DNA from: Spirulinaceae cyanobacterium SM2_1_0
GTDB taxonomy: Bacteria; Cyanobacteriota; Cyanobacteriia; Cyanobacteriales; Spirulinaceae
Assembly (NCBI GenBank): GCA_012031265.1
Contig: JAAUTY010000006.1
Coordinates: forward strand, 1-64,000
Reading direction: 5' to 3'
DNA: 64,000 bases
Shown: positions 1 through 6,827 of the stretch, in pieces
How the letters are laid out: every line of letters begins with the position of its first letter
Numbering within the stretch: position 1 is the stretch's first letter
Program-made: the position numbers and the translations under genes
Notes under the pieces: generated by a model
What the model was told of the DNA's origin: nothing
Database searches by the model: none
Seen by the model: only the letters and a program-made list of their open reading frames with translations

Positions 1-156
1 GGGCTTTGCTGACCATCGCACCTTCAAGATGCCGCCGCGACGGATCCCAATTCGACACCTAGCTTGTTTGACCCACGCTACCAGCCGAAGCCTGCTTATT
101 TTGCGGTGGAGAGTGTGTTGCAGCGGGTGTCACTGCTCTCACAAGTTAGCGGTTAG
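1..156 (+). pseudogene. C-terminal end of a GH10-type endo-1,4-beta-xylanase, frameshifted, cut by the window edge
   Basis: Only the last ~50 codons are inside the window. The frame starting at base 2 reads GFADHRTF, and the frame starting at base 28 reads DAAATDPNSTPSLFDPRYQP and then KPAYFAVESVL before a TAG at 154-156. Family-10 xylanases typically end with a W-G-x-x-D-x-x-(S/T) segment followed by LFD-x-x-YQPKPAYxA, so both halves fit one protein. They are in different frames and join at about bases 22-27, where one missing T (TT for TTT) would restore the frame. The enzyme would hydrolyse xylan backbones and is usually secreted. Its 3' end overlaps the convergent gene on the other strand by 18 bp. 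The assignment rests on a short stretch and is moderate. Confidence 0.5.
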
Positions 157-699
157 GTCTTGGTCAAGCACCTGACTCCAGAGCGCTAAAGCCTCCTGAT
201 CCTCGCCTCGCACCGCCGCTGCTAGAGCCTGTTCGACCCTTGCCTGCACCGCCCACTCCGCCGCCCCTAGTGCGACCCAGTCGTCTTGGAAAAAGCCACC
301 CAGCACAGCTGTCAAACTCCTCAGCGGTAATGGCTGAGTTTGCAGCCATTGTTGTGTCCAGGCTTCGACAGCCGCTTCATCCTTCAATGCGGCCTGTCGC
401 GCCAACCAGAACTTGAACAATCGCAGTGCTAGCCTGGCCTGCCCCCGATAGCGGGCATCCAACTGCTCCCAGGTCTGCGGCTGTTGGGGGGGGGCGTTGC
501 CAACGGTTTCTACTGTCAGGGTTGTTGTCACCCCAGTCTCTGCTGCTGACTGCACCGTCTCTTCGAGAGCTGGCAAGACAGCCGCAGAGCTAACATAGCT
601 GCTCTCGTTACAGTAGCGGGTCAGTGAAGCTACGAGTTGATTGGGTTGCAGCCAGTAATGTTGGCGCTGCAAAGGGGGAAGCTTGCAAGCGGGTGCCAC
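139..699 (-). CDS. Hypothetical protein, 186 aa
   Basis: This is an open frame with a GTG start and coding-like composition, rich in Ala, Leu and Gln and with long predicted helices. There is no signal peptide, membrane span or catalytic motif that I recognise. The first in-frame stop upstream lies only about 27 bp before the GTG, so the start cannot move far. No clear ribosome binding site precedes it. It lies downstream of the HPr-kinase-like gene on the same strand, separated by a 360-bp gap that holds one tiny ORF. I looked for features of a lasso leader peptidase (transglutaminase-like Cys-His-Asp) or a PqqD-like recognition domain and saw none. Function unknown. Confidence 0.45.
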   Translation of the reverse strand: MAPACKLPPLQRQHYWLQPNQLVASLTRYCNESSYVSSAAVLPALEETVQSAAETGVTTTLTVETVGNAPPQQPQTWEQLDARYRGQARLALRLFKFWLARQAALKDEAAVEAWTQQWLQTQPLPLRSLTAVLGGFFQDDWVALGAAEWAVQARVEQALAAAVRGEDQEALALWSQVLDQDLTANL

Positions 700-1060: not shown

Positions 1061-2044
1061 TTATACGGAAGGGATGGAGGCTTGGTAGTCAGCGAGCAGC
1101 AGCGTCAGGAAATCGGGTAAACGTGCCGGATCGCGATGGGGAACGGCGCGGCGCACGGGTAGGCACTGGAGCAGATGGCTAAGACTGGCAAACTCTTGCT
1201 GGCGGCGGGTTTTGTCTAGCAGGTAGTTCGTGTAAGTGTTGGCAATCAGTTCCACTAGTGCCTGGGAGGGGGCGATCGCCTCGAGCCGAGGTGCGTTTGA
1301 AGCTCCCTGCCGCGCGGCGAGCAGATAAACAGCCGCTAGGGGAAGTGGCTGGGTTTGAAAGCTTGCTTCCCCGGCGGGTGCCAAATCTAGATAACGCTTG
1401 TCCCAGTGGGGATGGTCAGGCACGAGACGCGGCAGTGCGTCGGCACGACCGTAAAGGAACTCTACAGCCTCCGACCAAAGCCGCAGCCGGGGGTAAGCCG
1501 GTTGGACGCAGAAGCCAGCGGCAGTTTCCGTCAGCGCCGCCACATCGTCGGTCAGGACGCGGTAACCTGCCTGGGCAAAAGCGGCGGCGGTTGTCGATTT
1601 TCCGGCCCCGGCCTGACCGACCAGGGCGATCGCCTGCTCTCCCACGGCGACGGCGCTAGCGTGCAAACAAGTCGTGCCGCGCCAACGCAGCAGGAAGCCG
1701 AGGATCGGGCCGAGCAGATAGGTAGCGATGTCTTCGCGCACCAACTTGCCTGACCAATTTGCCCAAATCTGTGCCGGTTGCAGCTGCACCAGGAACTCGG
1801 CGTCATCGTAGTAGCGGAAGTGGAATCGCTGGCGATCGCGATCACAAGTCACGCGCAGGCTCGGCGCATGTGCCAGCGGAGTCGCCGCACTCAGATACCA
1901 GGGCTGGCAAACGGCGGCGAGGTGCGGGGGCTGCGTCCCCATGACAATGCAAACATCGGCAGCCGCTTGCTCAGATAACGGTTGCAGTCCGGGCAACGGA
2001 CAATTAGCCGCCAAATGTAGCCCATAAGCACGGTAGTAGGGCAT
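1061..2044 (-). CDS. HPr kinase-like ATP-binding protein of a lasso-type RiPP cluster
   Basis: The protein has 327 aa. A P-loop GQAGAGKST lies at about residues 143-151, preceded by LHAS (127-130), and an acidic DD pair at 166-167 is placed like the HPr kinase/phosphorylase catalytic region. The N-terminal ~120 residues are the variable domain usual for the HPrK-like proteins found beside asparagine-synthetase homologues in RiPP clusters. In the paeninodin lasso cluster, a kinase of this kind phosphorylates the C-terminal residue of the precursor. Here the gene starts 20 bp after the stop of a lasso-like precursor gene, so a role in peptide tailoring is inferred. The true HPr/CcpA context is absent. 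The start is the ATG at 2042-2044. Confidence 0.75.
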   Translation of the reverse strand: MPYYRAYGLHLAANCPLPGLQPLSEQAAADVCIVMGTQPPHLAAVCQPWYLSAATPLAHAPSLRVTCDRDRQRFHFRYYDDAEFLVQLQPAQIWANWSGKLVREDIATYLLGPILGFLLRWRGTTCLHASAVAVGEQAIALVGQAGAGKSTTAAAFAQAGYRVLTDDVAALTETAAGFCVQPAYPRLRLWSEAVEFLYGRADALPRLVPDHPHWDKRYLDLAPAGEASFQTQPLPLAAVYLLAARQGASNAPRLEAIAPSQALVELIANTYTNYLLDKTRRQQEFASLSHLLQCLPVRRAVPHRDPARLPDFLTLLLADYQASIPSV

Positions 2045-2064
2045 TGGCGACGATTCGCAGTCAG

Positions 2065-2235
2065 TTAGAGAGTGCGATTGGGTGTGGTTCCCATCCCGGC
2101 ATTGTCCGGGTCGCCCAGGTCAGCAACTGCCTGAGTTAGGTATGTGATGTTGCCATAAACTGTGAGTTGGGGAGCGCGGTAGGGGCGCTTGCTGGCGGCT
2201 TGGGGGTGGGACATATCCGATCGCTCCATATCCAT
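2065..2235 (-). CDS. Lasso-peptide-like precursor (A gene), 56 aa
   Basis: The gene begins at the ATG at 2233-2235, with GGAAG 7 bp upstream. An internal ATG at 2212-2214, with GGAG 9 bp upstream, is an alternative. Residues 19-34 match the lasso leader motif: Y19, P22, L24, G28 and T34 (YRAPQLTVYGNITYLT). Lasso leaders carry Thr at position -2, so cleavage would fall after Q35. The core would then be 21 residues, starting AVADLGDPD and ending TTPNRTL. Ala1 could close a macrolactam on Asp7 or Asp9, both of which are permitted ring sizes. The cyclase homologue ends 14 bp upstream and the HPr-kinase-like gene starts 20 bp downstream, which fits one operon. The core boundary is inferred and not proven. 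Confidence 0.7.
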   Translation of the reverse strand: MDMERSDMSHPQAASKRPYRAPQLTVYGNITYLTQAVADLGDPDNAGMGTTPNRTL

Positions 2236-2249
2236 GAAAATACTTCCAA

Positions 2250-4124
2250 CTAGTTGCTATCCACAGTGTTAGCAGATGCCGACCGTCCAACGCATCCGCA
2301 ACTCCCGCAGTATCGCTGCAACCAGTAATGCAAACTGACGGGTCGCAGACAGCCCCAGGCTAGCATTGGGGGGAGGGAGGAGCCAGCGGCTATGGCGAGC
2401 AGGCGTTGGTTAACATAAGCATTTATACCACTATTGCTCTCGTGGCTGAAAATTTCTCCCGGAAACCCCTGCCGTTGCAGGGCAAGGTAGAAGGGTAGCC
2501 CGCCCAGAGCCGTCTTGGGGCGCTGGCAGATCGCCATTGGGAGGCGATCGCGCCCCGCCTGTCGCAGGATCTCCTTGCCGACGAACCACGGTAGCGGCGG
2601 CAGTGCCAACAAGAAATTGAGCAGCCGCAGATCCAAAAAAGGCAGCCGCGTCTCGACCGGCAGGTTCAAGAAGCCCGGATCGCAAGCCGCCAGCGTCGGC
2701 AGCCAGACTGGAGCCGTGAGCGCTCGGTAGGCACGCGATCGCCAGGGATGCGCTGGCCGCGTTGTCATTCTCCTTGCCCAAACCTGCTGCCAGCGATCGC
2801 GCGCCTGAGTCCGACGGACGAAATCCTCCTGCAACCAGTCCGGAAAGGCAGGTAATTCCTGCTGCCCCCGCCACTGTCGCCAGCGGGCCAGTGTGCCAGT
2901 TCCCCATTCGGGTCGCAGGCGCTGTTGTAAACATTGGGCGAGACCGCCGAGGCTGACCAGTAGCGGCAGACCGCGTAGGCTTTCCAGCACCGTCGAGGGC
3001 TGCAAGGCTTCGTCGGCTCCCTCACCGTAGAGGGCGACGCGACTGTGGCGGGCAATGCGGTGGAGTTGCTGGCGATCGCCCTGCAACAACGGGCTATGAC
3101 TTGGCTCTGGTGGCAGCGTCGTCGCGTCCGCCGTCGCCCAGTCTTGATACAGCCGATAATCGTCAGCCGCGAGAAGATGCAGCGGGATTTGCAGCGCCTG
3201 GGTGACCAAGGGCGTGTAGTGACGCTCGGAGTCGGTAAACAGGCGCTCGTAAACGGTGGTGTAAGCCTGCAAGTCAAGCTGAGGGGCGACCGCCCGCGCC
3301 GTCGCCGCCAGGGTGGACGAGTCGAGGCCGCCGCTGAGATAGATGGCGGCGCGATCGCCCGGTAGGCGATCGCGTACCGCTTGTTCCAAGTGATGGCGAA
3401 AGTCCGCGAGACAATCCTCAGCGCGACGGTAGCGGCGCAAGGCGGGGACCGGCAGCGTCCAGTAGCGCTGGCCGCGGCCAGCGTCAGGGTTGGCCCGTAG
3501 GCAATGACCGCCTGGTAAGCGCTGGATGTCGCGAAAACTGGTTGTCGTTGGCTCGCGGTTGAAGTCGAAGAGGAGGAAATCGGCGATCGCCGCTTCATTC
3601 AGCTCTGTGGAAATGGCCGGATGCTGGCACAGCACCCGTAAGTCGTTGCCGAGCAGCAGAGTTGCCCCCAAGCGGGCGTAGAACAATGGCTTGATGCCCA
3701 AGGGGTCGCGGGCGGCGAAGAGCGTTTGCTGCGATTGATCCCAGATCGCGAAGGCAAAGTCGCCTTGCAAGCGCTCCAGGGCGCGATCGCCCCAGGTCAA
3801 ATAGGCCTGACCGAGCAATTCTGGATCAGTCGGATCATCGGTCAAGGGGCGATTGCGCCGCCGGAGTTGCGCGCGCAGTTCGTCGCGCCCGTCGAGGCGG
3901 ACATCGGCAACCAAGATGATTCCGGGCGCGATCGCCCGGGGCTGCTGTTCACGGGCGGCGCGATCGCTCGTCGCCAGCAGCGCGTGCCCAAAACCCGCAT
4001 TCGCCTCGCACCAGACGGTTCGGCGATCGGGGCCGCGCTGGGCTAGCTGGGCAGTCAGCCGCACCAGCTCGGCGCGCTCCACCGGCTGACCGTCGCCGTG
4101 CAGCCAGCCGATGAAACCACTCAC
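2250..4124 (-). CDS. Asparagine synthetase homologue, probable lasso peptide cyclase (C protein)
   Basis: With the GTG at 4122-4124 as start, the protein has 624 aa. It has an N-terminal class-II glutamine amidotransferase-like domain (QRGPDRR near residue 32) and a C-terminal ATP-pyrophosphatase domain with the PP-loop SGGLDSS at about 264-270. The catalytic Cys expected at position 2 is replaced by Ser (MSGFIGWLHG), so glutamine hydrolysis is unlikely. This fits lasso cyclases, which adenylate an Asp/Glu side chain and join it to the core N-terminus. The upstream frame allows a start at 4181, but the GTG overlaps the yidD stop (GTGA) and carries GAGG upstream. Neighbours are yidD, then the precursor and the kinase-like gene. 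Confidence 0.75.
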   Translation of the reverse strand: MSGFIGWLHGDGQPVERAELVRLTAQLAQRGPDRRTVWCEANAGFGHALLATSDRAAREQQPRAIAPGIILVADVRLDGRDELRAQLRRRNRPLTDDPTDPELLGQAYLTWGDRALERLQGDFAFAIWDQSQQTLFAARDPLGIKPLFYARLGATLLLGNDLRVLCQHPAISTELNEAAIADFLLFDFNREPTTTSFRDIQRLPGGHCLRANPDAGRGQRYWTLPVPALRRYRRAEDCLADFRHHLEQAVRDRLPGDRAAIYLSGGLDSSTLAATARAVAPQLDLQAYTTVYERLFTDSERHYTPLVTQALQIPLHLLAADDYRLYQDWATADATTLPPEPSHSPLLQGDRQQLHRIARHSRVALYGEGADEALQPSTVLESLRGLPLLVSLGGLAQCLQQRLRPEWGTGTLARWRQWRGQQELPAFPDWLQEDFVRRTQARDRWQQVWARRMTTRPAHPWRSRAYRALTAPVWLPTLAACDPGFLNLPVETRLPFLDLRLLNFLLALPPLPWFVGKEILRQAGRDRLPMAICQRPKTALGGLPFYLALQRQGFPGEIFSHESNSGINAYVNQRLLAIAAGSSLPPMLAWGCLRPVSLHYWLQRYCGSCGCVGRSASANTVDSN

Positions 4125-4555
4125 CGCAGATGCCCTCGCCAAAAGCTGAAAGTGCAACCACTCGCGCCGCAATCGCCACAATCAAGAATGTCACAGCCGC
4201 CCAGATCGCAGTCCAACCCGTCACAGTCGAAGTCCAGGCCATCGCTGATACTGCCGCAATCGCACCAATTCGCGCCACGCTGACAGCAATGATCGCGATG
4301 CCGCCGTGACTCCTCACTCGCGACCCGACAAGCGGCAAAGCGCTGGCGGCTGGGTCGGATCGCATCGCGCAGGCCGCGATCGCGGATCTGCCACAACACG
4401 TAACCGGAACCAGACTCGCCGCCATAGCACACCCGGTAGGCGCAGCGAAAGCCTTTGTGCGGCGACAGATAGCGTTGATAGCCCTGGATCGCGGCGATCG
4501 CCAGTCTTGCCACTACGGAGAAGCGGGATCGCGGTCTCACACTGAACTCATTCAT
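4121..4555 (-). CDS. yidD: Membrane protein insertion efficiency factor YidD with Cys/Asp-rich tail
   Basis: The first ~75 residues carry the YidD signature: an amphipathic N-terminus, then IQGYQRYLSPHKGFRCAYR and a C-Y-G-G-E-S-G-S-G-Y segment. YidD assists YidC-mediated insertion of inner-membrane proteins. The protein has 144 aa, longer than the usual 70-90, because of a C-terminal tail dominated by Cys, Asp and Gly (WCDCGSISDG, then DCDGLDCDLGGCD). Such a tail could bind metal, but that is inference. The stop overlaps the GTG of the next gene by 4 bp and the start overlaps the end of the dynamin-like gene by 8 bp, so these genes are probably co-translated. Confidence 0.85.
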   Translation of the reverse strand: MNEFSVRPRSRFSVVARLAIAAIQGYQRYLSPHKGFRCAYRVCYGGESGSGYVLWQIRDRGLRDAIRPSRQRFAACRVASEESRRHRDHCCQRGANWCDCGSISDGLDFDCDGLDCDLGGCDILDCGDCGASGCTFSFWRGHLR

Positions 4556-6827
4556 GCGGCTGCCAGGTCATCAAATCTGCCCGTAGCGCCGTCAGCTCGG
4601 TTTGCAGAGCTGCAAATTGTTCTTTTTGTGCCTGCAAAGTGGCTAGAACTTCATCCGCCATCGCCTCACGTTGCTCGCGCTCCTGGAGCAGGCGATCAAA
4701 TTCAGCCAGGAAGCGATGGATGTACTCGCTGATCTGCTGTTCGGCTTCCCTAAAATCGTCCGCCACCTGTTGCTCGATCGCCTTTTTGACCACGGCCAAA
4801 CTACCAATGGTTTGGGCATCAATTTCGTGTTCAATCGCTTCCAGGGTCTGACGCAAATCGATTTCATAATAGGCGCGACAATCATCGACCTCAAAATCGA
4901 TTTCATAGTCGTAGCAAAAGGCGCGGCGGTGCTCCGTTTCTAAACGGGTATAATCCTCGGTTTGCTGTTGGACTTGTGCATCGATGCCTTGAAATTCAAA
5001 GGACAAGATTTGAATCGGATTGATATGCATGGCGATGTCCAGTCCTTCGCCAAGATGGGTGGAGATTTCGTCAGAGATTTTTTGAATGTTTTCACGAATT
5101 TCGGTGATTAATTCCTGACGAATCTGAGTGCCTTGGCGGGAGAGTTCATCTTGGGTCGTCGTCCACCAGTCTTTAATGGCGAGTGTACAAAATTGATTGA
5201 TCTCCTGTTTGACTTGCGCGACTTCTTCCAGACTCTCGCAGCGGATTTTGTAGGGGCTGTCGCTCATTTGCAAGAAGTTGCGAATGGCGGTGTGTAGGGA
5301 GTTGGCAATGCGGGTGGGGACAGGAAAAGGAGTGGCTAAGGGGGCAATTTCTACCTCAGCTTCGACGGCGATCGCCCCCGTGGCATCTTCGCTCGATTGA
5401 CTGATTTCGGCGACGGCGATTTCTGTCAGTTCTGATTCAGCCGCTGGCGCGAAACGAGTCTGGGCGAAGCGTTCAAATTCATTCTGTAGCGTGCGCTTGG
5501 CACGTTCGGCGAAGTGACTGATCTCGGTCTTGAATTGGGCGACAAGTTGTTGCTTTTGCCGCTCAACCAGTTTCTTGACATCGCGAATCTGGACAATCGC
5601 CGACTTGGTGAGCTGTTTGTAGGCTTCTACACGCTGGCGTAGCGGCTCGATGTCCAATGTCCAACCCCGGATGCGAGTGTTGATCAGGTCAATGCTAATC
5701 AGGGTGGATTTTTCGAGACTGTTGAGGACATTGCTGAGCAGATTCCAGCCCGAATTGGTGGTGATGCGGCGAATCACGACCTCCTCCAGGGTCGGGATGG
5801 CACTGTCGAGCAGAGCTTGCGGCGCAATCTTCGAGGGTGCGGGAGAAACCAGGTCACCGTCAGCGGTCTCGTGGGCGTAGCGACCGCTAAAAAACTGTTT
5901 AAAGTTTTTCAATTGCACGTCCGAGGCGGTCTGACTGGCGATCAGTTTTGCCAACAGACCCTGCCAAGCACTGACCGGATAAATCTGGGGCTGGGAGATG
6001 CCAAAGTGCTGGAGCAGTTGTTTCAAATCGGCGATCACCTCGGCGAGCGGGCGATCGCCCTCCGTCCGGCAATCCACCTTGTTGAGAATGAAGTAAATCG
6101 CCCCCCGGTTGCGCGCCAGAAATTCCTGACGCTGGCTGAGCAAGTCCTGTAACAACTCGGAATTGATGCTGTCCTTAAACGAGGTGTAGTCGAGGACGAA
6201 CAAGATCACATCGCAGTTGCGGAGCGCCTCCAGTGCCGTCGCCTTGAGCGCCACCGTGTCAAAGGCAGCCGTCGTCCACTCGTTGGGGCCGGGGGTATCG
6301 ACGAGCGTGAAGCCCGCCAGTGCCGGTTGTTCACCCAGGGCGGCAATTGGGTGCTCCAGCTCGAAGCGACGGGTGCGATCGCGATTCGCCGTCGCCCGAA
6401 TTTGATGGGTGCGTTCGAGAAATTGTTGGCGGATGTGGGCGGCATCGCCCTCAGCTAGCAGAATTGGCTCGCGCTCGCCGTCGCGATACTCCAGCAGGCG
6501 CGGCGTTTGCCCCGGCGCGAGCGGGCGGACATCGGTGCGGCAGACGGTGCAGGACTCGGACTCGCTGGCGAGCACTTCCGCCCCGATCAGGGCATTGAGC
6601 AAGGTACTTTTTCCCGCTTTCATCGCGGCGATCGCCGCCACTTGGTAACGCTGCGCCCGCAGGGCTTGTAGGGCGCGGGTGATGTTGGCTTGAATACCCG
6701 CAAAACCTTCTGCTGGATCCGACAGCTCGCCGCGCTCGGTTTGCAGCGCCTGCAAGGATTGCCCGAGGCGATCGCCAAAAGCTTGCAGACGGGCGTGCAT
6801 TTCCTGATAGCGTTGAGCAGTCATCAC
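4548..6827 (-). CDS. Dynamin-like GTPase
   Basis: The protein has 759 aa. The G domain lies at about residues 60-300: G1 AMKAGKST (68-75), G3 LVDTPGPNEW near 178, and G4 LNKVD near 247. It is followed by long helical, coiled-coil-rich segments to the C-terminus (repeated QQ/EE/R patterns), as expected for a bacterial dynamin stalk. Bacterial dynamin-like proteins remodel or tether membranes. No transmembrane span is obvious. It is the first gene of a minus-strand run with yidD and the lasso-like genes; the overlap with yidD is 8 bp. A membrane-related role is family knowledge, and a link to the peptide genes is speculation. Confidence 0.85.
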   Translation of the reverse strand: MMTAQRYQEMHARLQAFGDRLGQSLQALQTERGELSDPAEGFAGIQANITRALQALRAQRYQVAAIAAMKAGKSTLLNALIGAEVLASESESCTVCRTDVRPLAPGQTPRLLEYRDGEREPILLAEGDAAHIRQQFLERTHQIRATANRDRTRRFELEHPIAALGEQPALAGFTLVDTPGPNEWTTAAFDTVALKATALEALRNCDVILFVLDYTSFKDSINSELLQDLLSQRQEFLARNRGAIYFILNKVDCRTEGDRPLAEVIADLKQLLQHFGISQPQIYPVSAWQGLLAKLIASQTASDVQLKNFKQFFSGRYAHETADGDLVSPAPSKIAPQALLDSAIPTLEEVVIRRITTNSGWNLLSNVLNSLEKSTLISIDLINTRIRGWTLDIEPLRQRVEAYKQLTKSAIVQIRDVKKLVERQKQQLVAQFKTEISHFAERAKRTLQNEFERFAQTRFAPAAESELTEIAVAEISQSSEDATGAIAVEAEVEIAPLATPFPVPTRIANSLHTAIRNFLQMSDSPYKIRCESLEEVAQVKQEINQFCTLAIKDWWTTTQDELSRQGTQIRQELITEIRENIQKISDEISTHLGEGLDIAMHINPIQILSFEFQGIDAQVQQQTEDYTRLETEHRRAFCYDYEIDFEVDDCRAYYEIDLRQTLEAIEHEIDAQTIGSLAVVKKAIEQQVADDFREAEQQISEYIHRFLAEFDRLLQEREQREAMADEVLATLQAQKEQFAALQTELTALRADLMTWQPHE

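Follow-up and report, generated by a model that had tools for sequence, protein, structure and literature searches.

Spirulinaceae cyanobacterium SM2_1_0 probably makes a lasso peptide from genes that are dispersed over its chromosome. The genes for the cyclase (C), the precursor (A) and a kinase (K) lie together in the stretch studied here, and those for B1 and B2 are found elsewhere and would act in trans. The most likely scheme is ordinary B1/B2/C maturation complemented by a precursor kinase, with the genes in separate loci, and at the sequence level the pathway is lasso-like in all core features tested, co-localisation excepted. The window, by which we mean the whole stretch of 64,000 nucleotides, opens contig C10 of the draft genome (5.03 Mb, 149 contigs), and position 1061, where the kinase gene ends, is just 1 kb from the contig edge. 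The family sample used for comparison consisted of 13 Spirulinaceae genomes from nine genera.

Table 1. Features of the proposed lasso pathway (window coordinates unless a contig is named)
Feature	Coordinates	Strand	Basis and remarks
Lasso precursor gene (A)	2065..2235	-	Leader motif; NCBIfam lasso_cyano 7e-6, below cut-off; alignment
Leader peptide	2131..2214	-	Ends T34-Q35; residue numbers count from the ATG at 2235, whereas the coordinates use the probable start at 2214
Predicted core AVADLGDPDNAGMGTTPNRTL	2068..2130	-	Predicted ring Ala1-Asp9; Asn18 and Thr20 invariant; ends NRTL
Lasso macrolactam cyclase (C), asparagine-synthetase-like	2250..4124	-	Start ATG 4124, stop 2250-2252; Pfam and NCBIfam
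HPr-kinase-like precursor kinase (K)	1061..2044	-	Hpr_kinase_C 1e-4; HprK_rel_A 1e-11
B1 (PqqD-like RRE)	C54:6661-6990	-	PF05402 1.7e-14; single PqqD-like gene of the genome
B2 (leader peptidase)	C54:6228-6689	-	Single Transglut_core3 gene of the genome; NCBIfam NF033537

An earlier note on this DNA had proposed the precursor from its leader motif. The reading frame is present, with Y19, P22, L24, G28 and T34 placed as described, and it does lie 14 bp past the cyclase stop on one side and 20 bp ahead of the kinase ATG on the other, as the note had it. The exact motif Y..P.L...G.....T occurs in one of the 828 short frames of the window, compared to 0.007 expected from shuffling. The match to the NCBIfam model NF033528 (lasso_cyano) reaches 25.9 bits, under the curated cut-off of 33 bits. 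The frame assigned by the note stands, its start at 2235 probably does not: the more likely start is the third in-frame ATG at 2214 (MSHPQAASKRPY...), since a GGAG lies nine bases upstream of it and the resulting length agrees with the homologues. By analogy with known lasso precursors, we infer that the leader is cleaved two residues past the motif Thr.

In an alignment of 13 precursors, the invariant positions include the leader residues Y, P and G, the Thr that precedes the cleavage site, and an Asp, an Asn and a Thr of the core. In the window precursor these core columns are Asp9, Asn18 and Thr20. Of Asp7 and Asp9, both proposed earlier as able to accept the ring, it is Asp9 that occupies the conserved acceptor column. 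The computed mass of the predicted core is 2066.97 Da when cyclised and 2146.94 Da with one phosphate added. Across the genera of the family, the cores share 49% identity, on par with the cyclases (46%); other cyanobacterial lasso cores share only 31%, although their cyclases share 58%. A side observation concerns genome G123, where two near-identical precursors alternate with two copies of B2, of which one is short (L188:12770-14580).

The cyclase shows the Pfam domains Asn_synthase (2e-26) and GATase_6, and its top NCBIfam match is lass_lactam_cya, the model of the cyanobacterial lasso cyclase (1e-85; 288.6 bits, under the cut-off of 525). The PP-loop, reported before as intact, is indeed present as SGGLDSS, and SGGLDS is invariant in 12 homologues. 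The catalytic glutaminase Cys is replaced by Ser (MSG) in all 12 aligned homologues, so that the enzyme combines a retained PP-loop with a lost glutaminase Cys, as is typical of the lasso kind. It is 42-48% identical to the cyclases of the other 12 family genomes. Upstream lie a YidD-like gene and a gene for a dynamin-like GTPase (4121-4555 and 4548-6827, both on the minus strand), neither with any sign of a tie to the lasso pathway.

The profile matches of the kinase are weak, both falling below cut-off (Table 1). H128, K149, D166 and D167 are invariant in 12 homologues, and His-Lys-Asp-Asp are the four residues reported as essential in lasso kinases (PMC9266682). An HPr-kinase-like enzyme with this set beside the precursor is what the locus shares with the paeninodin-type clusters of PadeK, ThcoK and SyanK, which make phosphorylated lasso peptides (PMC9266682). 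Unlike those, the window core has no C-terminal Ser as phosphoacceptor; the invariant Thr is the penultimate residue. A [K/R]-[S/T] pair close to the C-terminus is found in 25 of 25 precursors of the clade versus 8 of 41 others, and we therefore regard this pair as the candidate kinase target. Phosphorylation probably takes place on its invariant Thr. Downstream of the kinase, near the contig end, there is a 186-aa frame (139-699, minus strand) with no Pfam match above cut-off and no NCBIfam match. A dedicated transporter was not identified.

The earlier note had described the locus as lacking a leader peptidase. This holds for the first 7 kb of the window, where profile searches recognised neither B1 nor B2 among the genes scanned, but it is wrong for the genome, because both genes are located on contig C54. 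The genome-wide search that the note proposed yielded one PqqD-like RRE gene and one lasso B2 homologue, which overlap each other and adjoin a pentapeptide-repeat gene. The note had offered two alternatives, B genes working from another place in the genome or a pathway unlike the known lasso systems. With B1 and B2 on C54, the former applies and the latter is not needed; its reading of a lasso precursor beside its own cyclase and kinase is retained. B2 clearly passes the curated lasso_biosyn_B2 model (84.4 bits, cut-off 33), and its catalytic Cys and His are invariant among the family homologues. For the family B1 profile, the first match among solved structures was the lasso protein TbiB1 (5e-14); for B2, no solved-structure relative was found.

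No cyclase or precursor was found around B1/B2 on C54. C10 and C54 are separate contigs of the draft. We considered whether C54 is a mere continuation of C10, and rejected this: B1 and B2 lie more than 6 kb inside C54 with unrelated genes on both sides, and near-complete relatives have them far from the cyclase. Additional PqqD-like genes in two family genomes, G003 (L061) and G004 (L064), were also rejected as B1, as they are accompanied by no B2 and their neighbours are unrelated or glycosyltransferase-like. The glycosyltransferase-like neighbours are those of L064, and at L061 an HprK-like gene is found 3 kb off; possibly the two genes belong to another peptide or polysaccharide module. A pentapeptide-repeat protein is encoded near B1 in six genomes (L003:7026-7739; L049, L063, L067, L068, L069). 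It is 81-89% identical across genera, far above the conservation of B1 itself.

Taken together, the predicted order of events is as follows. The kinase would act close to the C-terminus of the precursor, with Thr20 of the [K/R]-T pair as the most likely phosphorylation site. B1 would be supplied from C54 and bind the leader motif YxxPxLxxxG, and B2, encoded next to it, would cleave after T34-Q35. The cyclase would then adenylate Asp9 and couple it with the Ala1 amine, which would close a nine-residue ring through which the 12-residue tail may be threaded.

The pathway genes are retained throughout the family. All 13 genomes have the cyclase, at least one B1 and one B2, and 12 each have the kinase and the precursor, both of which are absent only from G011, an 82%-complete MAG; these counts come from a single family, and common descent explains part of the co-retention. 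The expectation of the earlier note that related precursors would stand near homologous cyclases elsewhere was borne out: they were found beside cyclases or kinases in 11 other family genomes. Co-localised genes are usual for lasso pathways, though not needed for the chemistry. Neither in SM2_1_0 nor in the rest of the family are they co-localised, and B2 is beside the cyclase in none of the 13 genomes. Cyclase, precursor and kinase are together with B1-B2 elsewhere in five genomes (G000, G002, G005, G006, G010). In G009, cyclase and precursor are at 2.07 Mb, the kinase another 140 kb off at 2.21 Mb and B1-B2 at 4.44 Mb. Three genomes (G004, G007, G008) have B1 joined to cyclase, precursor and kinase with B2 elsewhere; in G007, for example, B2 is alone at 1.68 Mb and the remaining pathway genes are at 5.35 Mb. 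Finally, in G001, G003 and G012 precursor and kinase form one locus, the cyclase lies in another, and B1 and B2 are distant from both. G003 has four loci: precursor and kinase at 0.48 Mb, cyclase at 0.79, B2 at 2.29 and B1 at 2.52 Mb. Overall, pathway loci in near-complete family genomes are 0.14 to 2.4 Mb apart.

The solo B2 genes of G004 (C3, L065), G007 (C1 at 1.68 Mb, L072) and G008 (C20, L066) fall outside the main B2 group of the family. They are on the side of the tree with B2 from other cyanobacterial lasso clusters, several deep branches being moderately supported. The leader peptidase of these three genomes is probably a non-orthologous replacement.

Outside the family, in an order-wide sample, six close relatives from three further families (G062, G041, G126, G140, G052, G109) have a compact, contiguous B1-B2-C-A-K operon. 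The proteins are homologous for each role and the precursors share the [K/R]-[S/T] motif near the C-terminus, but here all five genes are adjacent and the core sequences variable. Among the 80 best cyclase loci from named genomes, a simple rule scored 60 non-family loci as missing the glutaminase Cys; in 56 of them B1, B2 or both are encoded within 5 kb. Two of the four exceptions (L156, L159) resemble normal asparagine synthetases picked up by that rule. In genus g39 of another family, B2 is elsewhere in five of six genomes (in G096 on the contig of the cyclase, 127 kb off), and in the sixth B1-B2 are apart from the cyclase. Since close relatives retain the compact operon, dispersal is probably a derived state, and it probably arose more than once. 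Compared with the canonical lasso pathway (A, split B1/B2, C), the family shares the leader motif, the RRE protein, the Cys-His leader peptidase and the Ser-for-Cys cyclase, but keeps B2, and usually B1 too, outside the C/A locus. Open-access papers yielded no description of a lasso pathway with dispersed core genes. The citrulassin deiminase is also encoded outside its lasso cluster (PMC8498205), but it is a tailoring enzyme, whereas the dispersed genes of Spirulinaceae encode core biosynthetic enzymes.

Lasso rings comprise 7-9 residues according to reviews (PMC9266682; PMC8498205), and the window core has its acid, Asp9, within this range. In four of the 13 family precursors (G004, G006, G010, G012), the first Asp or Glu, counting from position 7 onwards, comes at position 10. 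This is also so in 8 of 12 close relatives, and one has it at 11, compared to an acid at 7-9 in 38 of 41 other precursors; as the sets were collected by motif and cyclase similarity, these counts are valid for this sample only. The G002 precursor has Glu7 plus Asp10, the latter in the invariant Asp column. The position-10 precursors would either form ten-residue rings or be cleaved at a site displaced by one residue. A search of open-access papers for a natural ten-residue ring turned up just an analogue made in vitro (PMC8498205).

Those position-10 acids in the family and its relatives, outside the 7-9 range, are also a reason to consider that the product is not a true lasso, but a branched-cyclic peptide without threading, or one with another ring size. 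We consider this unlikely, given the lasso-type character of B1, B2, cyclase and leader and the presence of Asp9 in the window core. A pathway in decay, with dispersal as a step to loss and the precursor as a relic, is very unlikely. Loss of linkage is often followed by decay of a gene cluster, and G005 has two precursor copies where only one was found in its congener G009. However, the pathway is retained in every near-complete genome across nine genera, the catalytic residues and the core residues D, N and T are invariant, and even the outlying B2 of G004, G007 and G008 keep the Cys and the HAW motif.

The position of the kinase gene next to the precursor would also suit a linear (poly)phosphorylated peptide (LPP), with the kinase as main enzyme and B2 and cyclase serving something else. 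LPPs described in Bacillota are similar to paeninodin-like lasso clusters and occur together with them (PMC13381572), and in G001, G003 and G012 the precursor accompanies the kinase and not the cyclase. We regard this as highly improbable, because the precursor directly follows the cyclase in 9 of the 12 genomes that have one, the ring Asp is invariant, and no other cyclase partner was recognised for B1/B2. The physical separation of B1/B2 from the window precursor could likewise mean that the real substrate of the C54 pair is a second, unseen precursor. This deserves hardly any credence: no other lasso_cyano-like precursor rose above noise genome-wide, and no second lasso-type cyclase was recognised among the Asn_synthase matches of the genome.

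The dispersed lasso pathway has consequences for how such peptides are found. Lasso searches normally look for neighbouring B and C genes and would overlook a dispersed pathway or take it for an incomplete one. Ring sizes and phosphorylation sites beyond the described range are a further prediction from the precursors of this group. A tentative and rather doubtful extension is that the clade makes natural peptides that have ten-residue rings and carry phosphate at an internal [K/R]-[S/T] site, by a pathway that was dispersed and vertically kept in two lineages; its conserved core would then suggest a role in the physiology of the producer rather than that of an arms-race antibiotic. With family-wide retention and a conserved core, the function of lasso peptides for their producers becomes testable in a cyanobacterial lineage.
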